Assembly (NCBI RefSeq): GCF_023898865.1
Contig: NZ_JAGSOV010000024.1
Span: 1 to 64,000 of the forward strand
Source: Pseudonocardia humida
GTDB taxonomy: Bacteria; Actinomycetota; Actinomycetes; Mycobacteriales; Pseudonocardiaceae
Direction of reading: 5' to 3'
Length of the DNA stretch: 64,000 nt
Below are positions 8,617-21,387 of the stretch, piece after piece. A program made the position numbers and the translations under genes. The notes beneath the pieces were generated by a model. It saw only the letters and a list, made by a program, of their open reading frames with translations. It did not search any database and had not been told where the DNA came from. The stretch's first letter is position 1. Each line of letters begins with the position of its first letter.

Positions 8617-9558
8617 ATGTCCGACTTCACGCTCCACGAGTTGCACTGCTTCGACGCGGTCGTGGGCGAGGGCGGCTTCCAGGCCGCCGCCGAGCGGCTG
8701 CACCGGTCGCATCCCTCGGTCTTCGCGGCGGTGGCCAAGCTGGAGCGTCAACTCGGGCTGAGCCTGCTGGACCGCTCGGGCTACCGGGTGCGGCCCACCG
8801 AGGCGGGGCTGGCCTTCCACCGGAAGGTGCGCTTCCTGCTGCACGAGGCCGAGGACCTCCGGACCTACGCCACCCAGCTGGCGATGGGGGAGGAGGCCGA
8901 GCTGCGCGTGGTGCTCGGCGACCTCTGCCCGTTGCCCCCGGTGCTGGAGCTGCTGAGCCGCTTCTTCGCGCACCGCCCGCAGACGCGGCTGCACCTGCAG
9001 TTCGAGACCGTGACGGGCCCCTGGGAGCGACTGCTGGAGGACCGGGCCGACCTCATCGTGCACCGGGTCCCCACGAGCGACGTCCGGATGGAGTGGATCG
9101 GGCTCGGCCGCGTCGCGCTGGTCCCGGTCGTGGCGCCCGGCTTCCTGCCCTTCCCCCCGACGGCGGACATCACGCCGCAGCGGATGCAGACCCTCACCCA
9201 GTGCGTGGTCCGCGACTCGGCGCGGCACCCGTCCGAGCCGGGCCACTTCCTGGTCGAGGGCGCTCCCCGGTGCTCCGTGCCGGACCACCTCATGAAGAAG
9301 GAGCTGATCCTGCACGGCATGGCGTGGGGGCACCTGCCCCGGTTCCTGGTCGAGGCCGAGTTGCGCGACGGTCGACTGCTGTCCATCGCCGGGCGGCACT
9401 TCCCCGGCGTGGTCGAGGAGCTCTCGGCGGCCCGCCGGCGCGACCGGCCGCACGGGCCGGTCGCCGACCAGCTGTGGGAGTTCCTGGCCGAGCAGGCACC
9501 GGTGCTGCGGCCGGCGTTGGGCCGGGTTCCCCGGGCGAGGCGGGCGTCGCCGTGCTGA
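8617..9558 (+). CDS. LysR-family transcriptional regulator
   Basis: A 313-residue LTTR. The winged helix-turn-helix covers residues 1-62: ELHCFDAVVGEGGFQAAAER, then SHPSVFAAVAKLERQLG, with LLDRSGYRVRPTEAG as wing. The remainder is the two-lobed effector-binding domain starting near ELRVVLGDLCPLPPVLELL. The start is ATG 8617. It is divergent from the enol-lactonase-like gene and so probably its regulator. The effector domain resembles those of LTTRs next to single hydrolase or dehydrogenase genes, but no ligand can be named. Confidence 0.85.
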   Translation: MSDFTLHELHCFDAVVGEGGFQAAAERLHRSHPSVFAAVAKLERQLGLSLLDRSGYRVRPTEAGLAFHRKVRFLLHEAEDLRTYATQLAMGEEAELRVVLGDLCPLPPVLELLSRFFAHRPQTRLHLQFETVTGPWERLLEDRADLIVHRVPTSDVRMEWIGLGRVALVPVVAPGFLPFPPTADITPQRMQTLTQCVVRDSARHPSEPGHFLVEGAPRCSVPDHLMKKELILHGMAWGHLPRFLVEAELRDGRLLSIAGRHFPGVVEELSAARRRDRPHGPVADQLWEFLAEQAPVLRPALGRVPRARRASPC

Positions 9559-9573
9559 GCGGGATCCACGGGC

Positions 9574-10146
9574 TCAGCCGCGGATCGCCTCGACTGTGCT
9601 GAGCACCGCGAGGACCACCAGGATCGCGGCCACCACGCGGGTCATCCAGCGCTGCGACACCACCCGCCGCAGCCGGTTGCCGGCGAACACGGCGAGCGCG
9701 GACACGGCCCACAGCGCGAGGAGGGCGCCGACCCCGACGGCGAGCGGGTCGGTGTAGCGCGCGGTGAGTGTGGCCACGATGATCTGCGTCGGGTCGCCCA
9801 GCTCGGACAGCAGGGTGGTGCCGAAGCACAGGGCCACCACGCGCCACGGCGTCGTCGGCGTCGCCTCGGGGATGCCGTCATCGTCGTCGTCCCCGCGCAG
9901 CAGCAGGACCGCGCTGACGAGGAAGATCACGGCGAGCGCGGCCGCGAGCGGCCGCTCGGGCAGCAGGCCGACGAGGCTCCCGGCCACGACCGCGACCACC
10001 ACCTGCACGAGGAAGGCCGCGGCCACGCCCAGCAGGACCAGCCGCGCCGGGAACCGGCTCGCGAGGATGAGCGTCACCAGGCCACTGGTGTCGGCCAGTT
10101 CGGCGAGGGCGACGATGCCGAAGGTGACGGCGATGACGACGACCAC
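9574..10146 (-). CDS. TMEM165/GDT1 (UPF0016) family cation transporter, motif-degenerate
   Basis: A 190-residue membrane protein with six predicted helices in two repeats of three. GDT1 proteins move Mn2+ or Ca2+ and carry E-x-G-D-(K/R)-(T/S) in each half. Here the two motifs are ELADTS (residues 16-21) and ELGDPT (115-120): the acidic residues stay but the basic residue is lost in both, and the first glycine is Ala. A DDDDD stretch lies in the loop at 86-90. The start is GTG. It is the last gene of the PQQ operon, 21 bp after the cation exchanger, which suggests a role in supplying or balancing the metal needed by the PQQ enzyme. Confidence 0.7.
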   Translation of the reverse strand: MVVVIAVTFGIVALAELADTSGLVTLILASRFPARLVLLGVAAAFLVQVVVAVVAGSLVGLLPERPLAAALAVIFLVSAVLLLRGDDDDDGIPEATPTTPWRVVALCFGTTLLSELGDPTQIIVATLTARYTDPLAVGVGALLALWAVSALAVFAGNRLRRVVSQRWMTRVVAAILVVLAVLSTVEAIRG

Positions 10147-10167
10147 GGAACGGCGCTCCCGTCCCGG

Positions 10168-11304
10168 CTAGTCGTCGTCGGGTGCGCCTGGGACCGCCGG
10201 CGCCTCGATGCCCGGCCGCTGCTCGTCCTGCTCGGCGCCCGGTGCGTCGTCGACCGGGACGAGCCCGAACACCGAGAAGCTGACGACCCAGTAGGCGACG
10301 TACCCCGCCAGCAGCACCACCCCGTGCCAACGCCGCAGGTGGCCGGTGAACAGCGCGTACGCGGCGAACCCGTTGATCACGACGAGGGCAGGCAGGTGCC
10401 AGCTGAAGATCTCCGGTGTGATCAGGAGCGCGCCGCCGACCAGCGCGATGATGCCGACCTTCGCGGTCACCGAGAACACGACGCTGCCGATGATGTTGCC
10501 GACGCCGATCGCCGGCGCCCCCCGCCGGGACGGCCGCACGGTGAGGAAGATGTCCTCCAGGGAGAGCACCACCGTCGCGATCGTCGCCCCGAAGACCGTG
10601 CCGCTGATCGCGAAGTCCTCGAGGATGCCCTCGGTGCCCTCCGACATGGCCCAGGCGCCGACGACGAGCCCGACCAGCGCGAGGAGCGCCAGCAGGAGCA
10701 GCACTCCTCCGGGCCGGTCGTTCGCCTTCGCCCGGCCCAGCTCGCCGGTCTCGTACAGGCCGGCGCCGCCGTCGCCACCGGCTCCGCGACCACCCCCGGC
10801 GGCGGCACCGACGAGTTCGGGGCTGTCCACCGCCTCGAGCACTTCGGCGCTGCGGAAGGTGGGCACCGCCCGCCGCTTCTCGCGGTAGGCGATGTAGGCG
10901 ATGAAGAGCACGAACAGCCCGATGAGCACGATCCCGGAGACGACGCCCAGCCCGCCCTGCAGCGCGGGCACGATCAGCACCAGGGGGGCGACCGCGAACA
11001 GCGCGATGTAGTCCTTGGGGATCTCCACCCGGCTGGGTGCGAGGAGCGCGGCGAGCGCCAGGACCAGGCCGGACAGCGAGATGACGGTCCCGAAGATCAC
11101 CCCGAGCGCGACGTCTTCGAGGCCCTCCAGGTTGAGCACCACGCCGAAGGCGAGGTCGTCGAACTCGATGCCGGTGAACAGGATGGCGAGCAGGAACAGC
11201 GAGACCGCCAGGCCGCGCGCCGCGCCCACCAGGTAGGTGATCAGCTTCTCGGCGCTGTAGACCAGCAGCGCCGTGCCGAGGGCGAAGATGATGATGGAAG
11301 ACAT
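10168..11304 (-). CDS. CaCA-superfamily sodium/calcium exchanger-like transporter
   Basis: A 378-residue protein with about ten hydrophobic helices in two inverted halves joined by a Gly-rich cytoplasmic loop (about 160-200). The alpha repeats that hold the ion normally contain GTSxPE. Here repeat 1 has FTGIEFDDLAFGV (E47, D49, D50) and repeat 2 has ATVVLSLEDIFLTV followed by GVGNIIGSVVF. The fold is kept while the binding centre has a different acidic pattern. An RBS GGGGGAG precedes ATG 11304. It sits 31 bp after pqqE in the same operon, so it probably handles Ca2+ or a lanthanide for the PQQ dehydrogenase. That link is inference. Confidence 0.75.
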   Translation of the reverse strand: MSSIIIFALGTALLVYSAEKLITYLVGAARGLAVSLFLLAILFTGIEFDDLAFGVVLNLEGLEDVALGVIFGTVISLSGLVLALAALLAPSRVEIPKDYIALFAVAPLVLIVPALQGGLGVVSGIVLIGLFVLFIAYIAYREKRRAVPTFRSAEVLEAVDSPELVGAAAGGGRGAGGDGGAGLYETGELGRAKANDRPGGVLLLLALLALVGLVVGAWAMSEGTEGILEDFAISGTVFGATIATVVLSLEDIFLTVRPSRRGAPAIGVGNIIGSVVFSVTAKVGIIALVGGALLITPEIFSWHLPALVVINGFAAYALFTGHLRRWHGVVLLAGYVAYWVVSFSVFGLVPVDDAPGAEQDEQRPGIEAPAVPGAPDDD

Positions 11305-11335
11305 CCGGTTGCTCCCCCTTGAGCGGAACGGGCAG

Positions 11336-12433
11336 TCAGTCGCCGAGCGCCCGGACCCGGTGCGGGCGCGGGACCAGCCGGGGGTCCTCGTCCCGCGACT
11401 GCGCGTTGGCCGCCTCGACCGCCCGCGCCACCAGGTCGTGGTCGGGCGAGAGGTGGCAGACCGGGTCGGTGCGGGCGGCGTCGCCGGTGAGCTGGAACGC
11501 CTGGCAGCGGCACCCGCCGAAGTCCAGCTCCCGGCGGTCGCAGCTGCGGCAGGGATCGGGCATCCAGTCCGTCCCGCGGAACGCGGTCATCACCGGGGCG
11601 CCGGTCCAGATCCGCTCCAGCGGTTCCTCGCGGACGCTGGCCCGGGGCAGCGGCAGCGACTGGGCGGCAGGGCAGGGCAGCACGTCGCCGTTCGGCGTGA
11701 CGGTCAGCTGCCGGGCCGCCCAGCCGCCCATGCAGGGCTTCGGGTAGCGGCTGTAGTAGTCGGGGATGACGTAGATGACGTCCATCCGGTCCCGCAGCCG
11801 CTCGCGGGCGGCCCGCACGACGACCTCGGCCGCCTCGAGCTGGGCCCGGCTCGGCAGCAGTGCGTCGCGGTTGCGCCAGGCCCAGCCGTAGTACTGGGTG
11901 TTGGCCAGCTCCACCCGGTCGGCGCCGACGTCCTCGGCCAGCGCGAGCACGTCGGCGACGCGGTCGATGTTCTGGCGGTGCAGCACCACGTTCACGGTGA
12001 GCGGCCAGCCCAGCTCCCGGACCACGCCCATCGCCTCGATCTTGCGCCGGAACGATCGCGTCCCGGCGATCCGGTCGGACACCGCGGGCTCGTCGGCCTG
12101 GATGCTGACCTGCACGTGGTCCAGGCCGGCGGCGCGCAGCTCCTCGGCCCGCTCGCGCGAGAGCCCGAGGGCGCTGGTCACGAGGTTGGTGTAGAGGCCG
12201 AGGTCGTGGGCGGCCGCCACGATCTCCACGAGGTCGCGGCGCAGCAGCGGTTCCCCGCCGGACAGGTGGCACTGCAGGACCCCGAGGTCGCGGGCCTCGG
12301 CCAGCACCCGCCGCCACTCGTGGGTGGCCAGCTCGTCGGAGTAGTCGGCCATGTTCAGCGGGTTCGAGCAGTACGCGCAGGCCAGCGGGCAGCGGTAGGT
12401 GAGCTCGGCGAGCAGCCCGAAGGGGCTATCCAT
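11336..12433 (-). CDS. pqqE: PqqE, radical-SAM PqqA peptide cyclase
   Basis: PqqE joins the Glu and Tyr side chains of PqqA by a carbon-carbon bond, the first committed step to PQQ. The 365-residue protein opens with the radical-SAM cluster motif CPLACAYC (residues 15-22), then SGGEPLLRRDL for SAM binding. The C-terminal SPASM part has CPAAQS, CRSC and FGGCRCQAF cysteine groups for the auxiliary clusters. ATG 12433 overlaps the pqqD stop by 8 bp, so translation is coupled. PqqE works with PqqD as peptide chaperone. Length and motifs fit the family well. Confidence 0.95.
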   Translation of the reverse strand: MDSPFGLLAELTYRCPLACAYCSNPLNMADYSDELATHEWRRVLAEARDLGVLQCHLSGGEPLLRRDLVEIVAAAHDLGLYTNLVTSALGLSRERAEELRAAGLDHVQVSIQADEPAVSDRIAGTRSFRRKIEAMGVVRELGWPLTVNVVLHRQNIDRVADVLALAEDVGADRVELANTQYYGWAWRNRDALLPSRAQLEAAEVVVRAARERLRDRMDVIYVIPDYYSRYPKPCMGGWAARQLTVTPNGDVLPCPAAQSLPLPRASVREEPLERIWTGAPVMTAFRGTDWMPDPCRSCDRRELDFGGCRCQAFQLTGDAARTDPVCHLSPDHDLVARAVEAANAQSRDEDPRLVPRPHRVRALGD

Positions 12434-12740
12434 CGGCGGGCACGAGCTCGACGCAGCGCCGGGCCGCGAGCCGGGTCAGGAACCGCCGGACCTCGTCGTC
12501 GGGGACGACCTGGTACCGCGCGCCCAGCTCGTCCACGATCTCGGCGACGGTGCGCCGCCCGTCGCACAGCCCGAGGATGTCCGCACCGCTGCCGTGCAGG
12601 ACCACCACCGTCTCGGGGTGCAGCAGGACGTGCCGCTGCCGGGTCGGGTCGAAGGCGAGCCGGACGTGGCGGGCCAGCCGCGGCCGGTCCGAGCCGGTCA
12701 CCGCGGGGGGCCGGGTCGGGGCCGGGTCCACGGCGGTCAC
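12426..12740 (-). CDS. pqqD: PqqD, PqqA peptide chaperone
   Basis: A 104-residue PqqD, a small winged-helix protein that binds PqqA and presents it to PqqE. Visible family features are the strand [20 protein letters not shown] (about 48-67), then [19 protein letters not shown], and the C-terminal [13 protein letters not shown] helix. The start is GTG 12740, which overlaps the pqqC stop as GTGA; the end overlaps pqqE by 8 bp. A roughly 20-residue Pro/Thr-rich head precedes the domain, longer than in many relatives. Confidence 0.92.
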
Positions 12741-13447
12741 CGCGGGTAGGCCTGGTCGATGGCGTCCATCATGCTCCACAGGACGTCGCACTTGAACGAC
12801 AGCGCGTCGACGGCGCGGGCCTGGGACTCGGCGGTCAGGCAGTGTTCGGTGACGACCTCCAGGGCGTGCTCGCAGTCGCGGGGCGCCTGCTCCAGGCGGG
12901 CGCGGAAGTAGGCGAGTCCCTCGGGGTCGATCCACGGGTACCACCGCTCGAACGCGGCCAGCCGCTCGGCCATCAGGTCGGGGGCGAACAGCTCGGTGAG
13001 CGAGGACGCCACGGCCTCCACCCACGGGCGGGTCCGGGTGAAGGTGACGTAGGCGTCGACCGCGAACCGCACCCCCGGGACCAGGTGCCGGTGGTCCCGG
13101 ACCTCCTCGCGGCTCAGCCCGGCGGCCTCGCCGAGGCGCAGCCACGCCTCGATGCCGCCTTCGCCGGGGGCGGTGCCGTCGTGGTCGGTGATCCGGCGGA
13201 TCCAGCGCCTGCGGACCTCGTGGTCGGGGCAGTTGGACAGGATCGCCGCGTCCTTGCGGGGGATGTTCTCCTGGTAGTAGAAGCGGTTGGCCACCCAGCC
13301 CCGCAGCTGCTCGCGGCTGAGCCGGCCGGCGTTCATCCGGACGTGGAACGGGTGCTGGTCGTGGTAGCGCCGCGAGTGCGCCCGCAGCGTCTCGACGAAG
13401 CCGTCGTCGCTCCTCGTCGTTCCGGTCGTCCCGGCTGTCGTCGTCAC
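12737..13447 (-). CDS. pqqC: PqqC, pyrroloquinoline-quinone synthase
   Basis: PqqC is the cofactor-free oxidase that closes the ring and removes eight electrons in the last PQQ step. The 236-residue protein shows [17 protein letters not shown] (active-site His/Arg region), [27 protein letters not shown] and [10 protein letters not shown], all well-known PqqC segments. The GTG start at 13447 overlaps the pqqB TGA (GTGA), so translation is coupled. A short Thr/Gly-rich head ([14 protein letters not shown]) precedes the domain. Confidence 0.95.
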
Positions 13448-14340
13448 GGGCCCTGCACCTCGATCTCGAGGCCGTCCATGGCCACCTCCATGCCGCTGTC
13501 CCGCAGGATCCGCCGCTCGGGCGAGTCCGCCAGCAGGATCGGGTTGGTGTTGTTCATGTGTACGAAGATCGTTCGCTTGACGCCGAGCGAGGGGAGCTGG
13601 GCCAGGCTGCCGTCCGGGCCGTCGATGGGCAGGTGGCCCATCTCCCGCGACGTCTTGGCGGCCAGGCCGAGCCGGACCAGCTCGTCGTCGCGCCAGCAGG
13701 TCCCGTCGATCAGCAGGCAGTCGCAGCCGGAGATCTCGGCGCGCAGCGCGGGGGTCAGGGCCTGCACCCCCGGCAGGTACACCAGCGTGCCGCCGCTGCG
13801 CTCGTCGGTCAGCCGGTAGCCCACGACGCGGCCGTGGTCCACCCCGGGGCCGAACCGGGTCCGCTTGGTGGTGGGCACGTCGAACGCCCGGCAGGACAGT
13901 CCGTCGGCCAGGGCCAGGTCGGTGCCGGGGACCACGGCCCGCCACTCGACGGGGCAGTAGCGCTCCAGCGTGCTCAGCACCCCCGAGCCGTCGCAGAGCG
14001 TCTTGTGCACCGACGGCGTGGCGTAGAGCCGCAGGGCGCGGGCCTCGCGCAGCAGCAGCAGGCCCAGCGTGTGGTCCAGCTCGGCGTCGGTGAGCAGCAC
14101 CGCCTCCACCGGTGTCGTCCGGCCGTCGTGCGGGTGCAGGTCGGGGGAGGCCTCGATCTGGGTGCGGACGTCGGGCGAGGCGTTGATCATGAACCAGCGC
14201 CGCCGGCCGGCGCTGACCGCGACCGACGACTGGGTGCGCGCGGGGGCCGCCCCGGAACGGACCGCGGCGCACACCGGGCAGCCGCAGTTCCACTGCGGGG
14301 AGCCACCTCCCGCGGCCGAGCCCAGCACCCGCAGCCACAT
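13444..14340 (-). CDS. pqqB: PqqB, metallo-beta-lactamase-fold PQQ biosynthesis protein
   Basis: A 298-residue PqqB, thought to hydroxylate the cross-linked Glu-Tyr intermediate. It begins [19 protein letters not shown] with the family CxCxxC zinc site (NCGCPVC), then [13 protein letters not shown], the metal-site segment [40 protein letters not shown] and [17 protein letters not shown] ribosome binding site precedes ATG 14340. It is separated from pqqA by 140 bp containing a strong hairpin and a run of 15 G. It overlaps pqqC at its end. Confidence 0.95.
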
Positions 14341-14379
14341 CCAACCACTCCGTTCGTCGACGACGGGGAGAACCGGGGA

Positions 14380-14394
14380 GGGGGGGGGGGGGGG
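14380..14394. repeat. Run of 15 G in the pqqA-pqqB leader
   Basis: A G15 homopolymer lies about 40 bases before the pqqB start, within GC-only sequence. Such a tract could slip and vary expression, could form a G-quadruplex-like DNA or RNA structure, or could be a base-calling artefact. Confidence 0.7.
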
Positions 14395-14442
14395 CGGGGC
14401 CCCCGCGGCCCCGCCCGGGAAAGAACCGGGGGCAGACCGGGT

Positions 14443-14471
14443 GAGGGCGCCGGACCAGGTCCGGCGCCCTC
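14443..14471 (-). terminator. Strong hairpin between pqqA and pqqB
   Basis: GAGGGCGCCGGACC, one base, then its exact reverse complement make a 14-bp inverted repeat beginning ten bases after the pqqA stop. No T-run follows, so I read it as an attenuator or processing/stability element and not a classical terminator. A hairpin after pqqA is a known way to make far more PqqA peptide than PqqB-E enzymes. Confidence 0.65.
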
Positions 14472-14480
14472 CCGTCGGAG

Positions 14481-14576
14481 CTAGTCGTCCATCTGGGCGA
14501 CGTACATGGTCACCTCGGGCGCGACTCCGATCTCGTCGAACTCGGGCGTCTCCCACACTTCGAGCGAAGACTCCAT
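14481..14576 (-). CDS. pqqA: PqqA, PQQ precursor peptide
   Basis: This 31-residue peptide begins [18 protein letters not shown] and contains the obligatory Glu-x-x-x-Tyr pair in [13 protein letters not shown]; those two side chains become PQQ. The W-x-x-P and E-I-G-V segments are also family marks. A GAGGAGG ribosome binding site lies before ATG 14576. It follows the dehydrogenase gene by 32 bp and is followed by a strong hairpin. The gene is too short for most gene callers. Confidence 0.95.
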
Positions 14577-14608
14577 GAATCCACCTCCTCTCTTCTCGGC
14601 CGGGATCC

Positions 14609-16306
14609 TCACGATTCCGGCAGGGCGAAGACGATCAGCGCGCTGCCGTGGCCCGCCCCGAGCATCCCGGGCAGGAACCCCTCGGCCCACCCGCCCCACC
14701 CGACCGGCACGGCGATGTACTGCCTGCCGTCGACCATGTAGGTCGAAGGGCTGCTGTGGTGGCCGCTGCCGCACTGGAACTGCCACAGCAGCTCCCCGGT
14801 GCGGGCGTCGAGGGCGTTGAACTCGCCCGACGGTTCCCCGGCGAAGACCAGGTCACCGCCCGTGGCCAGCACCGAGGCGCACATCGGCAGCTCGTTGCGC
14901 CAGCGCCACTTCTCCTCGCCGTCGGCGTCGAACGCGCTGATGGACCCGGTCATGTCCTCGATGTCCACCTGGACGCCCGCGCCCCAGTACGGGATGGACT
15001 CCTTGAACTCCCGGCGCCGCCGCGTGGCCGTGGCCCCGACGTCCTGGACCGGGACGTAGAAGAGCTCGGTCTTCGGGCTGTAGGCCGCGTGGGTCCACTC
15101 CTTGGCGCCCGCCGGCCCCGGGTAGAAGTGGACCGGCACCCCCTCCTCGTCGGGGTAGACCTTGGCCGTCACCCGGCCGTCCCTGGTGATCGCGCCCCAG
15201 GTGATCCGGTCGACGAAGGGGGTGATGTTGACCAGCTCGCCGTTCGTGCGGTCCAGGACGAAGAAGTAGCCGTTCTTGTCGAAGTGCCCGAGAAGCTTGC
15301 GCCCGTCCTTCTCGAACAGGATGCACTCGGCGATGCTGTCGTAGTCCCACACGTCGTGCGGGGTGCACTGGTAGTGCCAGCGAATCTGACCGGAGTCGAC
15401 GTCGACGGCGATGATGCTGTCGGTGTAGAGGTTGTCGCCCTCGCGCACGCCCCCGTCGAAGTCGGGCGCCGGGTTGCCGGTGCCCACGTAGAGCAGGTTC
15501 GTCTCCGCGTCGAAGGTGCCGGTGAGCCAGCAGTTCGCGCCGCCGCGCGCCCAGGCCTCGCCGTCGGCGGGCCAGGTCTCCGAGCCGGGTTCGCCGGGCT
15601 TCGGGATCGTGTAGCAGCGCCACTGGTGCTCGCCGGACCCGATGTCGAACGCGTCCAGATGGCCGCGCACCCCGAACTCCCCGCCGGAGCTCCCGACGAT
15701 GACCAGGTTCTTGACCACCAGCGGCGCGACCGTGGCGCTCTCCCCGGCCCGCACGTCGCCGTAGGTCTTGTCCCAGACCCGCTTGCCGGTGGTGGCGTCG
15801 AGCGCCAGCACGTGGGCGTTCGCCGTGACGACGAAGACCTTGCCCTGCGCCACCGCGACCCCGCGGTTCACGTTGCCGCAGCACAGCGACACGTCGAAGG
15901 GGACGGCGTGCTTGTACCGCCAGATCTCGGTGCCGTCCTTCGCGTTCAGGGCCCACACCCAGCCGTCCCAGCCGGCCAGGAACATGATCCCGTCGACGAT
16001 GATCGGGGTGGCCTCGAACGAGTAGGTCGACGCGCCGGCGATGATGCCGCTGGAGCCGGCCTGGAAGATCCAGGCTGGTCCGATGCGCTTGACGTTCTCG
16101 GTGTTGATCTGGTCGAGCGCGCTGTAGCGCTGTCCGTCGTAGGTGCCGTAGTAGGTGAGCCAGTTCTCCGGCTCCGAGCGGGCGTTGAGGATGCGCTCGT
16201 AGTCGACGCCCTCCACGACCGGCGGCGCGATCTCGTTGCCCGGGAGCTTGCCGCTCAGCTTCGCCTGGTCGACGGCCTCACCGGCATCGACGTACTCAAC
16301 GGTCAT
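14609..16306 (-). CDS. PQQ-dependent alcohol dehydrogenase with lanthanide-type metal ligands
   Basis: A 565-residue eight-bladed propeller quinoprotein of the methanol/ethanol dehydrogenase family. The vicinal disulfide that packs on PQQ is C142-C143 (SLCCGNVNRG). Metal ligands by comparison with XoxF are E210 (GGEFGVRG), N278 (GTGNP), the catalytic base D321 and the extra D323 (VWDYDS); the extra Asp marks lanthanide-dependent enzymes, where Ca2+ enzymes have Ala or Ser. Tryptophan-docking segments such as GWDGWVWALNAKDGTEIW repeat along the chain. There is no signal peptide and only 12 bp to the upstream gene, so export is not evident. A GAGAGGAG site precedes ATG 16306. No cytochrome c partner is encoded nearby. 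The alcohol oxidised is unknown. Confidence 0.9.
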   Translation of the reverse strand: MTVEYVDAGEAVDQAKLSGKLPGNEIAPPVVEGVDYERILNARSEPENWLTYYGTYDGQRYSALDQINTENVKRIGPAWIFQAGSSGIIAGASTYSFEATPIIVDGIMFLAGWDGWVWALNAKDGTEIWRYKHAVPFDVSLCCGNVNRGVAVAQGKVFVVTANAHVLALDATTGKRVWDKTYGDVRAGESATVAPLVVKNLVIVGSSGGEFGVRGHLDAFDIGSGEHQWRCYTIPKPGEPGSETWPADGEAWARGGANCWLTGTFDAETNLLYVGTGNPAPDFDGGVREGDNLYTDSIIAVDVDSGQIRWHYQCTPHDVWDYDSIAECILFEKDGRKLLGHFDKNGYFFVLDRTNGELVNITPFVDRITWGAITRDGRVTAKVYPDEEGVPVHFYPGPAGAKEWTHAAYSPKTELFYVPVQDVGATATRRRREFKESIPYWGAGVQVDIEDMTGSISAFDADGEEKWRWRNELPMCASVLATGGDLVFAGEPSGEFNALDARTGELLWQFQCGSGHHSSPSTYMVDGRQYIAVPVGWGGWAEGFLPGMLGAGHGSALIVFALPES

Positions 16307-16318
16307 CGTCTGCTCCTC

Positions 16319-16780
16319 TCACGGCCGCGGCTGGTCGGGACGGTCGAGGCGGGCCTCCGGCGGGACGTCGCCCAGCACGACGATGGCCCCGGTCAGCCCC
16401 CGGCCCTCGTCGTTGCCGGTGGGCGAGCTGAACCAGTAGTAGCCCGGACCGTCGAGGTTGAGGGTCGCCCTGCCGCGCGAGTGGTTCACCAGCCAGATGA
16501 ACTTCCGGTCGCCGTTGCTCGGCAGCAGCGCGCAGTGCGTGTTCAGGTCGTCGTTGATGATCTCGAGGTCGATGTCACCCCCGTGGGGCATGACCAGGAT
16601 CGACGGATCCCAGGCGATCTCATCGGGCCGGATGCGGATCGTCGCCGACATCCGGCCGTCGGCGCCCTCCGTCGCCTGCCCGATGCTCCCGGTACCCAGA
16701 ACCCGGCCGATCGCCGCTCTGTTCTGCACGTTCAGCCCGAGCTGGCTCAACAGGTCGGATCGTTCCTGCGCCATCGTCAT
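16319..16780 (-). CDS. Cupredoxin-fold PQQ-associated protein (MSMEG_3727-like)
   Basis: A 153-residue protein with a cupredoxin-like C-terminal domain (about 45-137): LVMPHGGDIDLEIINDDLNT, H82-C83, then a closing PGYYWFSSPTG and LTGAIVVLG. A true type-1 copper site needs a C-H-M set in that last loop; here the positions are Ser/Pro/Leu, so copper binding is doubtful. It resembles the mycobacterial MSMEG_3727 family (named from memory) that travels with PQQ dehydrogenases. I chose ATG 16780 because GAGGAGG lies eight bases before it; GTG 16789 and ATG 16774 are alternatives. It is the first gene of the PQQ operon. Role unknown, perhaps an assembly or electron-transfer partner. Confidence 0.7.
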   Translation of the reverse strand: MTMAQERSDLLSQLGLNVQNRAAIGRVLGTGSIGQATEGADGRMSATIRIRPDEIAWDPSILVMPHGGDIDLEIINDDLNTHCALLPSNGDRKFIWLVNHSRGRATLNLDGPGYYWFSSPTGNDEGRGLTGAIVVLGDVPPEARLDRPDQPRP

Positions 16781-17020: not shown

Positions 17021-19303
17021 TCACGAGCTACCGTTCGCACCCGGTACGCGACCGCTGCGGGCGCGGGGGAGGTCGTAGCGGTCGAGGTTCATGACCTTGT
17101 CCCAGGCGGCCACGAAGTCGTGCACGAACTCGCCCCCCGCGTCGTCGCTCGCGTAGACCTCGGCCACGGCCCGCAGCTCGGAGTTCGAGCCGAAGACGAG
17201 GTCGACGCGGCTGCCGGTCCACCGCAGCTCGCCGGTGGCGCGGTCGCGGCCCTCGAACGTCGCCGCGTCCTTCGACGTCGCCGTCCAGGTGGTGCCGGTG
17301 TCGAGCAGGTTGACGAAGAAGTCGGTGGTCAGCCGGCCGGGCGTCGAGGTGAACACGCCCACCGGGGACCGCCCGGAGTTCGCACCCAGCACGCGCAGGC
17401 CACCCACCAGTACCGTCATCTCGGGCACGGTCAGGGTCAGCAGGTCGGCCCGGTCGACCAGCAGGTGCTCCGCGGGCCGGCGGTGGCCCTTCGCGAGGTG
17501 GTTGCGGAACCCGTCGGCGACCGGCTCCAGCGCGGCGAAGAACTCCGCGTCGGTCTGCTCCGGCGAGGCGTCGGTGCGCCCCGGGGCGAACGGGACCCGG
17601 ACGTCGTGGCCCGCCTCCGCCGCCGCCCGCTCCACCGCGGCGCACCCGCCGAGCACGATCAGGTCGGCCAACGAGATCCTCTTGTCCCCGGTCTGCTCGT
17701 CGGCGAACGCCCGCTGGATCCCCTCGAGCGTCTCCAGCACCCGGGCCAGCGTGTCCGGGTCGTTGACCGTCCAGCCGCGCTGCGGCTCCAGGCGGATGCG
17801 CGCCCCGTTCGCGCCGCCGCGCTTGTCGCTGTCGCGGAACGTCGAGGCCGACGCCCACGCGGTGGAGACGAGCTGCGCGGTCGTCAGCCCGGAGTCGAGG
17901 ACCCGGCCCTTCAGCGCGGCGATGTCGGTGTCGTCGACCAGCTCGTGGTCGACGGCGGGGACCCGGTCCTGCCAGAGCAGCTCCTCCCGCGGGACCAGCG
18001 GGCCGAGGTAGCGCTGGATCGGCCCCATGTCCAGGTGCGTCAGCTTGAACCAGACCCGGGCGAAGGCGTCGGCCAGCTCCTCGGGGTGCTCCAGGAAGCG
18101 CCGCGAGATCGGCTCGTAGCCGGGGTCGAACCGGAGCGCGAGGTCCGTCGTCAGGATCGTCGGGGCGTGGGTCCTTCCCGGGTCGTGGGCGTCCGGCACG
18201 GTGCCGGCACCGGCGCCGTCGCGCGGGATCCACTGCCACAGACCGGCCGGGCTCAGCTCCAGGTCCCACTCGAAGCCGAACAGGTTCTCCAGGAAGCTGT
18301 TGTCCCACCTCGTCGGGGTGGGCGTCCACGTCCCCTCCAGCCCGCTGGTGACGGTGTCGGCGCCCATGCCGGTGCCGTAGCTGCTCCGCCACCCCAGGCC
18401 CTGCTCCTCCAGGGGGGCGGCCTCCGGTTCGGGGCCGAGGTGGCGGTCCGGGTCGGCCGCGCCGTGGGTCTTGCCGAACGTGTGCCCGCCGGTGATCAGG
18501 GCGACGGTCTCCTCGTCGTCCATCCCCATGCGCCGGAACGTCTGGCGGATGTCCCTGGCCGAGGTGAGCGGGTCCGGCACGGTGTTCGGGCCCTCCGGGT
18601 TGACGTAGATGAGGCCCATCTGGTCGGCGGCCAGCGGGCCCTGCAGCTCCCGGACACCGCCGTGGCGCTCGTCGCCGAGCCAGGCGCGTTCGGGGCCCCA
18701 GTAGAGGTCGTCGGGCTCCCAGACGTCGGCCCGGCCGCCGGCGAAGCCGAACGTCGAGAAGCCCATCGACTCCAGGGCGCGGTTGCCCGCGAAGACCATC
18801 AGGTCGGCCCACGAGACCCGCCGGCCGTACCTCTTCTTGACCGGCCAGAGCAGCCGGCGCGCCTTGTCGAGGTTGCGGTTGTCGGGCCAGCTGTTCAGCG
18901 GGGCGAAGCGTTGCATGCCGGCGGCCGGGCCGCCCCGGCCGTCGGCCACGCGGTAGGTCCCGGCGCAGTGCCACACCATCCGGACCACGAGCGGCCCGTA
19001 ATGGCCGAAGTCGGCGGGCCACCAGTCCTGCGAGGTCGTCAGCACCTCGTCGACGTCGCGGGCCAGTGCGTCGAGGTCGAGCGTGGCGAACGCCGCGGCG
19101 TAGTCGAAGTCGGCGCCCAGCGGGTCGGCCGCGGCGGGGTTGCGGCGCAGGACGTCCAGGTCGAGCTGGTCGGGCCACCAGTCGCGGTTGCCGGTGCCGT
19201 CCCTGGGCGGCCGGGTGCGGCGCACGGGCGAGGCGGGCAGGCCGAGGCCGCCCGCGCTCTGGTCGTCCATCCCGCCGACGACGGCGTCCGTGCTGTCAGA
19301 CAC
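17021..19303 (-). CDS. katG: Catalase-peroxidase KatG
   Basis: A 760-residue bifunctional haem catalase-peroxidase. Distal residues are R108, W111 and H112 ([13 protein letters not shown]), the proximal haem ligand is H273 ([13 protein letters not shown]), and the Trp-Tyr-Met adduct needed for catalase activity is W111-Y232-M258 ([11 protein letters not shown] and [12 protein letters not shown]). Both the catalytic N-terminal half and the haem-less C-terminal half are present. GTG 19303 has GGAGGG upstream. The distal motif has Val and Cys (MVWHCAG) where MAWHSAG is common. It starts 16 bp after the GAF/LytTR regulator stop, so the two are co-transcribed; hydrogen peroxide from alcohol oxidation is a plausible reason for its place here. 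Confidence 0.95.
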
Positions 19304-19319
19304 GCGAACCCTCCAGAAC

Positions 19320-20717
19320 TCAGATGCCCAGCGCGCGGCGCACCGCGGGCGCGTTCCGCCGGGAGACCGGCACCACCTCTTCCGCCCGGTCGTCCATGAC
19401 CAGGGACAGCTCCCCCTTGGCCCCGCGCTCGACCTCGCGGATGCGGCCGAGGTTGACCACGTACCGCCGGTGCACCCGCAGGAAGCCGGCGTCGGCCAGC
19501 TCACCGTCGAGCTTGTCCAGGCTCGGCGAGGCCGCCCGCAGCCGCCCCTCGTCGGTGGACAGCCACACGTCGTTGCCCTCCGACTCGGCGAAGGACACCT
19601 CCGGCAGCTGCAGCAGCACCATGCGGTTGTCGCGCACGGCGACCAGCCGACGCGGCTTCACCCCGGTGCTCGCCGGTTGCTCCGCGTGGGGCACCTGGGC
19701 CCCGTCGGACGCGCTGAACCAGATCAGGTTGCCGATCAGGTGCCCGGACGAGAACACCGGCCGGATGCTGATCGAGGTCGGCTCGTCGGCGAGGTGGGTG
19801 AAGATCTGCGTCGAGCCGACCCAGTCCGGGTTGCGGGCCGCCTGGCTGCTGGCGTACCGGGCGGCGGCGATCAGCTCCGGCAGCCCCGGGTTCCACCGCA
19901 GCGTGGGGTCGACCGCGGGGGTGGAGGCGGGCACGCCCAGCAGCACGCTCGCCGTGTCGTCGGCGATCACCACCTTGCCCGCGGTGTCGACCGCGGCCAG
20001 CGCCGCGCCCGAGTGCACCCTGGCCTGGGTGAACGACGCGACCAGTTCGGCGCCGCTGTCACGGGCGCGCCTGGTCAGCAGGCACTGGGTCTTGGTGACC
20101 GCGTTCGCCAGCCAGCTCACCGCCGGGCCGGGGAGCTGGCTGCGCCAGCAGGAGATGTTCAGGACCGCGATCGGCTCCCTGGTCACCACGTCGCGCACCG
20201 CGATGCCCGCGCAGACCCAGCTGTGGAACGCCTGGCACCAGTGCTCGGCGCCCCTGATCAGCACCGGGCCGTGCGCCTCCAGCGCGGTGCCCATGCCGTT
20301 CGTGCCCGCCGCGCTCTCCGACCAGCAGAACCAGGGCGCCAGGTTGGCGTCGGAGGCCCTGGCGAGCGTGGCCGGGTCGCCCCACTCGCCCAGGATCCGG
20401 CCGGTGGCGTCGGTGACCGTGACGACGCCGTTGAGGTGGCCCACCTCGTGCGCCACCGAGGCGGCGCAGAAGCCCAGCTCGGTGAACACGACGTCGTGCT
20501 CGGGCGTGCGGTCGACCTCCGCGACGGCGATCGGCGCCTCGGTGAGGAGCGGGTCGACCCGGTAGCGCTCCCGGCAGCGGTGCCAGGAGATCGCCACCAC
20601 CGGCCGGACCCCCGGGACCTCGTCCTCGCCCCGCACGAAGCGCTCCCACGCCGTGAGCACGGTGCCCTTGCCCCGTCCGTGGCCCGCCATCGGTTCGAGC
20701 CGATCTACATCGGTCAT
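19320..20717 (-). CDS. GAF-sensor regulator with LytTR DNA-binding domain
   Basis: A 465-residue regulator. The N-terminal part resembles AcoR-type sensors: [16 protein letters not shown] near residues 42-57, then a GAF-like domain with [20 protein letters not shown] (about 126-145). A PAS-like middle follows ([20 protein letters not shown]). The last 105 residues are a LytTR domain ([31 protein letters not shown]). No phospho-acceptor receiver is present, so it should sense a small molecule directly. AcoR-like sensors often control alcohol or acetoin use, which fits the PQQ operon downstream; katG is in its transcript. ATG 20717 is the likeliest start. Confidence 0.75.
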
Positions 20718-21387
20718 GGTGGAGACCGCCTTTGGTCGATCCCGAACGCCCCCGCGGGCCTGCGCCGGTCCGCTCCGGTCACCGATCATCACGACCGGGC
20801 GGCGGACCGGCACCGGGCCGCGCGTCTTCCTGCTTCACTGTTCTGGGCTGCGTCGCATACCGGCACCACCCACCCTAGGAACCTCCATCGGGCCCTGTCA
20901 CGCCCTCGGTGGATCCGAAACCCGGCCGGGCACCCGGAGAAGATCGGAAACAGGGTCCGCGCCTGCGCTATTCGATCTCCCCGGCGTTCCGCCGGTCGGG
21001 GGAGCGCCGGCTCTCCGGCTGATCTTCGGCCGAGCCCGTCGCTGCTGGGGCGATGCGCGGAATTGATCGACGTGTTTCGCGGCGCTTTGATCTTCTCGGC
21101 GAGAAAATGCTGGGAGAACTCCGCGTCGTGGCGAGAACGGCGGGATCGACGCCGATGTCGACTTCGGTTGCCCCGCGGATCAGCGGGGGTCTTTCGGGTC
21201 GATGCGCAAAGGCGATCATGTCGGCGCCGTCACGGGTCTCAGCCCGACCGAACCGCGTGATCATCGTACGAAAACGAGCCGCGTACTGCGCCTGACCGTC
21301 GGGTCGGGTGGCACGTGGGGGACGGTGCCCAGCCCAGGAGGGCGGCGAGGCCTGCGAGCAGCCCGAAGGCCCGGTCAGCGGCTGCCG
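20718..21387. other. Gene-free stretch between regulator and sugar kinase
   Basis: I see no credible gene in 670 bp. Coding bias is lost and GC falls locally (around 21045-21290). It must contain the promoter of the regulator-katG unit, and the end of the kinase transcript. No hairpin with a T-run is evident. Confidence 0.5.

Follow-up and report, generated by a model that had tools for sequence, protein, structure and literature searches.

The window studied here is a stretch of 64,000 nucleotides of the soil actinomycete Pseudonocardia humida (NZ_JAGSOV010000024.1, positions 1 to 64,000), part of contig 118 in a genome of 8.3 Mb; its nearest named relative by locus is Pseudonocardia lacus (dehydrogenase 94%, CaCA antiporter 87%, GDT1-family transporter 81%). 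It carries, on the minus strand from 16780 down to 9574, a unit of nine genes that brings together the synthesis of pyrroloquinoline quinone (PQQ), a PQQ dehydrogenase with the ligand set of lanthanide enzymes, a cupredoxin-like protein and two predicted cation transporters. We demonstrate that a transporter, either of the CaCA superfamily or of an MntP-like subfamily, is co-inherited with this type of dehydrogenase locus, and we examine whether it may handle the metal of the enzyme. The unit is composed as follows:

16319..16780, minus strand: cup, PQQ-associated cupredoxin-like protein of the MSMEG_3727 family, 153 aa (TIGR04339, E 2e-86; PF23509)
14609..16306, minus strand: PQQ dehydrogenase, 565 aa, with E210, N278, D321 and D323 (TIGR03075, 624 bits)
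14481..14576, minus strand: pqqA, 31-aa PQQ precursor peptide with E-V-T-M-Y (read from the sequence; tblastn matches in other loci)
14440..14473, minus strand: tentative GC-rich stem-loop after pqqA (RNA folding)
13444..14340, minus strand: pqqB (frame, place and tblastn matches of 45-87% in other pqq loci)
12737..13447, minus strand: pqqC (TIGR02111, 331 bits)
12426..12740, minus strand: pqqD (TIGR03859, 80 bits)
11336..12433, minus strand: pqqE (TIGR02109, 519 bits)
10168..11304, minus strand: CaCA-fold antiporter with GIEFDD (residues 45-50) and LED (residues 249-251) (PF01699, 90.8 bits)
9574..10146, minus strand: GDT1-family transporter, a lineage-specific addition (PF01169, 106 bits)

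From cup to the GDT1 gene, the intergenic gaps are 12, 32, 140 (pqqA-pqqB), -4, -4, -8, 31 and 21 bp, so that the coordinates bear out the first-pass annotation, which had described nine genes on a single strand with gaps of -8 to 32 bp except between pqqA and pqqB. Curated cut-offs are passed by the cupredoxin-like protein (287 vs. 75 bits), the dehydrogenase (cut-off of 480 bits), PqqC, PqqD, PqqE, the CaCA protein (cut-off of 24.9 bits, passed also by each half) and the GDT1 protein (cut-off of 27 bits); pqqA comes from direct reading.

To mark the dehydrogenase locus in a neutral way, we relied on the cupredoxin-like family TIGR04339. In the order to which the window belongs, 30 of 397 genomes, that of the window included, carry the marker over its cut-off (one further match, of 22 bits, was left uncounted). 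A CaCA homologue is present in 24 of the 397, and all 24 are marker-positive (0 of 367 others; Fisher test, 3e-33); the limit was set at E 1e-20, the weakest best match of any genome being 5e-101, and up to four candidates per genome were scored. The CaCA gene lies inside a 9-20 kb stretch in 22 of the 34 marker loci fetched besides the window, and it does so in three layouts, i.e., after pqqE on the same strand (11), on the opposite strand beyond pqqE or pqqC (6) and upstream of cup (5). The proximity of CaCA and pqq genes, whose persistence in relatives the first-pass annotation had made decisive for its proposal, is thus conserved. The six marker genomes devoid of CaCA carry another transporter. 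Indeed, an MntP-like gene adjoins pqqE in two of them, neighbour clustering places such a gene at the locus in five of them, and by profile search this MntP-like subfamily is strong (E 4e-59 or better) in seven of the 397 genomes, all marker-positive, namely all six genomes without CaCA plus G302, which has both types. The three MntP-like proteins tested score 89-94 bits, over the PF02659 cut-off of 24.4 bits, and in this they resemble the MntP manganese efflux pumps. They differ from these pumps in forming a separate high-scoring subfamily, found among the 397 genomes in marker-positive ones only: E values drop from 4e-59 to 6e-18, and ordinary MntP accounts for seven matches (E 6e-18 to 5e-14) in marker-negative genomes. 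Altogether, a CaCA or MntP-like transporter is found in 30 of 30 marker genomes and in 0 of 367 others (Fisher test, 9e-46, which is not a true probability because the genomes are related).

This association does not reflect a single inherited block. On a dehydrogenase tree of 46 rows, the transporter type changes at least nine times, six of these changes being forced by well-supported branches, and the explanation by one inherited block is therefore ruled out. Transporter labels were assigned by genome, not by locus. In rows L040, L053, L054 and L055 the transporter lies elsewhere in the genome; rows L218, L219 and L220 are labelled CaCA because of a CaCA elsewhere in the genome, their fetched loci showing no MntP; in L221 both types occur in the genome; L052, L056, L304 and L305 were uncounted and L064 has no dehydrogenase. 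We regard the co-inheritance of the transporter with the dehydrogenase locus as firm.

Beyond the order, 84,980 species genomes were scanned with the CaCA alignment, and the best 80 of 121 relatives were retained as named loci (by title, 79 actinobacterial and one haloarchaeal). PQQ genes lie in the locus in 54 of these 80; the other 26 loci belong to 25 genomes, of which 23 carry the marker elsewhere. The two that do not are Arthrobacter cheniae, in which TIGR03075 has no match, and Haladaptatus, whose distant TIGR03075 match (386 bits) stays under the cut-off yet shows the same ligands. The named and order sets are not independent, since the named loci overlap the order genomes. In a family outside the order, an MntP-like gene stands directly after pqqE in five of seven loci (the MntP match of L303 falls in two overlapping frames, and L304 ends inside pqqB). 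A plasmid-borne origin was considered and rejected: the CaCA query matched haloarchaeal plasmids only (8 records), and the dehydrogenase matched 316 plasmid records, all but one below 60% identity, the exception being a Streptomyces plasmid with a 91% dehydrogenase and the MntP layout.

A related association is found in haloarchaea. Of the 146 genomes in the Haladaptatus order, 22 carry a CaCA that matches at E 1e-40 or lower, and a TIGR03075-type dehydrogenase, at the same limit, occurs in 21 of these 22 vs. 0 of 18 sampled negatives (Fisher test, 1.7e-10; the negatives are 18 of the 20 listed, out of 124, the small G422 and G439 being left out). Both genes lie inside one 20-kb stretch in 11 genomes, the stretches having been placed to include both where coordinates allowed; two of them (L282 and L283) contain only a second CaCA class, with a different, likewise acidic residue set. 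The DYD motif is present in all 13 haloarchaeal dehydrogenases read. Ten of them, the main class, have E, N, D, Y and D and no visible signal peptide, and in the other three E is replaced by D and, as judged by eye, a copper-type cupredoxin domain is fused to the enzyme. On a Halomarina plasmid, a CaCA pair accompanies an ATP-binding cassette (ABC) importer, a dehydrogenase and an aldehyde ferredoxin oxidoreductase, and hSBP2, an ABC binding protein, recurs in 11 of 20 additional haloarchaeal loci and the oxidoreductase in seven. In the islands L273-L283, L308 and L309, CaCA genes are accompanied by an SsuA-like ABC importer, a winged helix-turn-helix protein and an amphi-Trp protein; a PQQ-type dehydrogenase is often present as well, and so is an aldehyde ferredoxin oxidoreductase.

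With PedH and XoxF, the window dehydrogenase shares both the TIGR03075 family and the four lanthanide ligands. Its best match in the PDB is PedH (6zcv, E 8.7e-110), a lanthanide quinoprotein ethanol dehydrogenase, and E210, N278, D321 and D323, which the first-pass annotation had named as metal-holding residues, stand at exactly these numbers and align with the corresponding PedH residues. These four ligands are kept in 72, 71, 72 and 72 of 72 distinct dehydrogenases, respectively (79 rows, less seven duplicates), and it is likely that the enzyme depends on a lanthanide. On the other hand, it differs from PedH and XoxF by its own pqq genes, by its Gram-positive host, by a conserved partner gene that encodes a cupredoxin-like protein poor in copper ligands, and by the lack of a visible signal peptide. 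Indeed, the characterised lanthanide PQQ enzymes (XoxF, PedH) are periplasmic, and the signal peptide by which enzymes of this kind are exported is not seen here. By eye, neither a signal peptide nor a twin-arginine stretch was found in the dehydrogenase N-termini of 33 order loci or in the marker-protein N-termini of 34, and over the 79 dehydrogenase rows the 12-residue hydropathy peaks at 1.7 within roughly the first 45 residues, counted from estimated gene starts. As no signal peptide is visible in either protein, we infer that the dehydrogenase is, with good probability, cytoplasmic, unlike XoxF or PedH.

The CaCA protein keeps the fold and the two alpha repeats of its superfamily (NCX_Mj, calcium/sodium antiporters). 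Its AlphaFold2 model (mean pLDDT 74.8) matches NCX_Mj (5hwx) with a Z score of 28.2 and a root-mean-square deviation of 3.5 over 289 residues; the protein scores below the TIGR00367 cut-off for calcium/sodium antiporters (80.8 vs. 179.65 bits). The subfamily is set apart by GIEFDD and LSLED, which stand in place of the TSLPE motifs. The alpha-1 repeat reads TGIEFDD, in a register to TSLPE that is uncertain by one residue between the NCX alignment and an internal-symmetry reading, and in alpha-2 TSLPE has become LSLED, the N of GSN is V and D240 is S. The ion-site motifs TSLPE and GSN of NCX_Mj are thus missing, and an acidic cluster (EFDD, ED) occupies the place of the Pro-Glu pairs of the ion site. 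E47, D49, D50, E250 and D251 are found in 22 of 22 CaCAs of the order, whose loci were reached via the marker and are hence free of motif bias. Among 92 distinct actinobacterial sequences (from 102 rows), none of these residues is missing from more than one; part of the sequences come from the named-locus scan, whose peptide pattern FTG[IV]EFDD favours the acidic motif. The CaCA alignment comprises 21 of the 23 available sequences, the near-copies L060 and L070 being left out. These changes suggest that the ion site may have been remodelled to suit a cation of higher charge or one that is bound more tightly.

The cupredoxin-like protein also departs from its structural relatives. Its AlphaFold2 model (pLDDT 77.5) adopts a cupredoxin-type fold (best Z 11.7), and against PDB sequences the family gave weak blue-copper or copper-oxidase matches, at best E 0.055. 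Type-1 copper cupredoxins bind their metal by two His, a Cys and a Met. Among 27 aligned sequences (the window, 23 of 34 order loci and three of seven from the family outside the order), there is one invariant ligand-like His (H82). The C-terminal loop has neither a conserved Cys nor a conserved second His or Met and carries an invariant GNDEG instead; invariant NDD and NDE acidic loops replace most copper ligands, and the ligand set of type-1 copper cupredoxins is thus incomplete.

The GDT1 gene shows a different distribution. It is absent from all 34 order marker loci besides the window, and a homologue of 62-81% identity lies in five of the 80 CaCA-selected named loci, two more having matches of 33-34% only. 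GDT1 homologues as such exist in 34 of 35 genomes searched, five marker-negative ones included. The first-pass annotation had counted GDT1 as a member of the module; we reject it as a conserved part of the module at large and retain it for a few relatives only. GDT1-family proteins carry the motif E-x-G-D-K-T/S, and the window protein has ELADTS and ELGDPT in its place. In L109 and L179, CaCA and GDT1 occur together in a stretch without pqq genes, the pqq unit being elsewhere in the genome (L218 and L219), and for this reason the two genes may travel as a pair. Just beyond the GDT1 gene and convergent to the unit, a LysR-type regulator lies at 8617-9558 on the plus strand; it has an 88% homologue in L109 and weak matches (26-35%) in few other loci.

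Upstream of the unit and on the same strand lie two further genes:

17021..19504, minus strand: katG, catalase-peroxidase, open reading frame as listed (NF011635, 1215 bits)
19320..20813, minus strand: LytTR-domain transcription regulator, a frequent neighbour (PF04397)

The family match of KatG starts at residue 102 of the listed frame, and its true start is probably near 19200. A katG gene stands beside the cup-dehydrogenase unit in 18 of the 34 order loci, in layouts such as mntP-katG-cup-dehydrogenase (L062, L065) or katG-CaCA-cup-dehydrogenase (L071), and KatG is perhaps part of a wider module. In 25 of the 34 order loci, the stretch that was fetched includes a match to the LytTR regulator. 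A protein resembling the ribonucleotide reductase R2 subunit (PF00268 in L148) was noticed in 18 loci (L061, L066, L069, L070, L148 and 13 others). Within the unit, the 91 nucleotides around the stem-loop (14490-14400) fold with a minimum free energy of -55.5 kcal/mol (z -1.73; 9 of 200 shuffles were as good), and the stem-loop may serve as an attenuator or stabilise the mRNA; between this structure and pqqB there is a run of C. A promoter and terminator scan of the unit returned no sigma-70 site and two terminator-like matches, near the shuffled mean.

The substrate of the enzyme can be approached through other neighbours. The genes hxlA and/or hxlB of the ribulose monophosphate (RuMP) pathway occur in seven of the 34 order stretches and in four of the 80 named loci. 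In L053, L056, L058, L060, L062, L065 and L071, cup-dehydrogenase lies near hxlA/hxlB, in some cases also with tkt, rpe, rpiB, fba, glpX or pfk. For those copies, the nearby RuMP genes indicate methanol or formaldehyde, which suggests that the enzymes may act as methanol dehydrogenases in these actinomycetes.

Parts of this system recall others already described. The cassette MSMEG_3721-3727 of Mycobacterium smegmatis, after whose MSMEG_3727 the marker family is named, likewise combines PQQ synthesis genes with a lone PQQ dehydrogenase; Haft drew attention to it in 2011 (PMC3023750), and a 2019 paper mentions it again (PMC6529628). As far as the consulted parts of these two papers go, and comparing by their descriptions, that cassette is treated neither as lanthanide-type nor as cytoplasmic, and no linked cation antiporter is reported. 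The lut and ped lanthanide uptake systems also tie metal-handling genes to a lanthanide enzyme; in the portions consulted (PMC7391723, PMC6839425) they are TonB/ABC or ABC systems of Gram-negative bacteria serving a periplasmic enzyme, and the antiporter of the window has another fold. According to the sections consulted of PMC5606694, a single actinobacterial isolate yielded a XoxF5-like fragment, and metagenomic PQQ methanol dehydrogenase genes of Pseudonocardia are cited there. In the consulted part of a 2024 study (PMC10875860), the periplasmic place of XoxF is given as the reason for finding no XoxF among its Gram-positive genomes. Within the open-licence literature, in the parts it made available, we found nothing linking CaCA or MntP to lanthanide enzymes, no description of a cytoplasmic lanthanide enzyme, and nothing on rare-earth uptake or control in cells without an outer membrane.

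The reading that we prefer is a self-contained cytoplasmic module for lanthanide-type, PQQ-dependent alcohol oxidation, with a dedicated metal antiporter more likely acting in efflux than in supply; taken as a whole, we hold it to be an evenly balanced proposition. The first-pass annotation had joined cofactor, enzyme and transport in one unit, and of this the pqq genes, the dehydrogenase and the co-inherited CaCA are upheld, GDT1 being dropped as a general part. In such a module, the apo-enzyme, PQQ and a lanthanide ion would meet in the cytoplasm, and the enzyme would oxidise a small alcohol, in some relatives probably methanol towards the RuMP cycle. KatG would remove the peroxide formed from reduced quinone and oxygen, and the cupredoxin-like protein may help cofactor or metal insertion, or electron exit. 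The antiporter would exchange the metal of the enzyme (Ln3+) for Na+ or H+, in all likelihood in the outward direction, and this efflux would keep the metal imported by another route useful and non-toxic. That the antiporter acts on the enzyme's own metal seems to us slightly the better supposition. The CaCA, MntP and GDT1 families are known mainly as efflux antiporters, and because three mainly exporter families meet at the locus, efflux or homeostasis of the enzyme's metal is our first choice, export or homeostasis being at least as likely as supply; in our judgement, removal of competing divalent ions would come second and uptake third. With more reserve, and a little short of an even chance, the acid-rich CaCA subfamily and the MntP-like subfamily that replaces it could be the first dedicated lanthanide antiporters, serving a cytoplasmic lanthanide PQQ enzyme in Gram-positive bacteria and haloarchaea.

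Several observations weigh against the preferred reading. The substrate and metal of the enzyme and the direction of the antiporter are all predictions, and the absence of signal peptides was judged by inspection and a hydropathy window rather than by a dedicated predictor. CaCA, MntP and GDT1 proteins are known for Ca2+ or Mn2+, and we found no lanthanide transport by any of them in print, as far as the sources consulted extend; moreover, the CaCA is the sole PF01699-family protein in the genome of the window, and it could for this reason serve general Ca2+ homeostasis. The linkage has its exceptions: the MntP-like gene and the marker loci lie on different contigs in G346 and G302, CaCA lies away from the marker in G231, G302 and G318, Arthrobacter cheniae (L134) has a CaCA with neither the marker nor a TIGR03075 dehydrogenase in its genome, no transporter of either type was seen in L305 over the 4.6 kb that follow pqqE, and in L300 the MntP-like gene is joined by a remote CaCA-like one (25%). 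In haloarchaea, G502 has a CaCA and no dehydrogenase, and in none of the 40 genomes does a dehydrogenase reach the TIGR03075 cut-off, which a match in E. coli, one of 14 control genomes, also misses. Finally, hxlA/hxlB accompany only the smaller part of the loci, in all seven of which cup-dehydrogenase lacks an adjoining pqqBCDE set (in L065 one lies about 9 kb away), and neither hxlA nor hxlB was found in the window or in the next 18 kb; hence, for the enzyme of the window methanol is no more than a lead.

Other explanations have to be weighed against the same data. The antiporter could guard against mismetallation by exporting competing Mn2+ or Ca2+, not lanthanides, while the enzyme loads its own metal. 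The mutual replacement of CaCA and MntP-like proteins fits a shared divalent substrate, and both families are named for these ions; on the contrary, the ion site of the CaCA is strongly altered from the NCX_Mj type, and special subfamilies have been kept although ordinary CaCA or MntP would suffice for such an export, which makes this guard role rather unlikely in our eyes. The first-pass annotation had proposed that the antiporter supplies the enzyme, i.e., that it imports lanthanides. Exchangers are reversible, co-inheritance with the enzyme is strict, and inspection of recurrent neighbour clusters in actinobacterial loci, not every cluster being identified, brought up no recognisable metal importer, a result that also tells against our preferred reading. 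Uptake nevertheless appears improbable, given the exporter character of all three families and the ABC importer with its binding protein that often lies near the haloarchaeal CaCA genes.

The family name and fold of the CaCA would also suit a dehydrogenase that really uses Ca2+, with the antiporter handling Ca2+ for it. The extra aspartate D323, diagnostic for lanthanide enzymes and present in 72 of 72 distinct sequences, speaks against this, as do the MntP-like replacement, which fits Ca2+ poorly, and the very low free Ca2+ of the cytoplasm, and we consider a calcium enzyme very unlikely. About as little credit can be given to a signal-less export, in which the proteins would exit by a route that needs no N-terminal signal, the antiporter bringing the metal to an assembly site outside. 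It would agree with the periplasmic location of XoxF and PedH and with export-type transporter families, and it is highly doubtful, as no signal was seen in 33 dehydrogenases and 34 marker proteins of the order or in the 10 main-class haloarchaeal dehydrogenases, and KatG and RuMP enzymes act in the cytoplasm. As for a chance neighbourhood of unrelated genes, GDT1 does behave in this way outside a few relatives; for CaCA and the MntP-like proteins it is refuted by their presence in 30 of 30 vs. 0 of 367 genomes, in several layouts and in two domains of life, and we give it practically no weight.

The module and its altered antiporter point to a rare-earth handling route that has so far gone unrecognised. 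If the preferred reading, of a cytoplasmic lanthanide-type enzyme with an antiporter for its metal, is true, rare-earth enzymology would not be confined to the Gram-negative periplasm, and the enzyme with its co-inherited antiporter would give a tractable genetic system for intracellular rare-earth handling. It would also yield candidate proteins for rare-earth separation and would mark lanthanide-type metabolism in Actinomycetota and haloarchaea.

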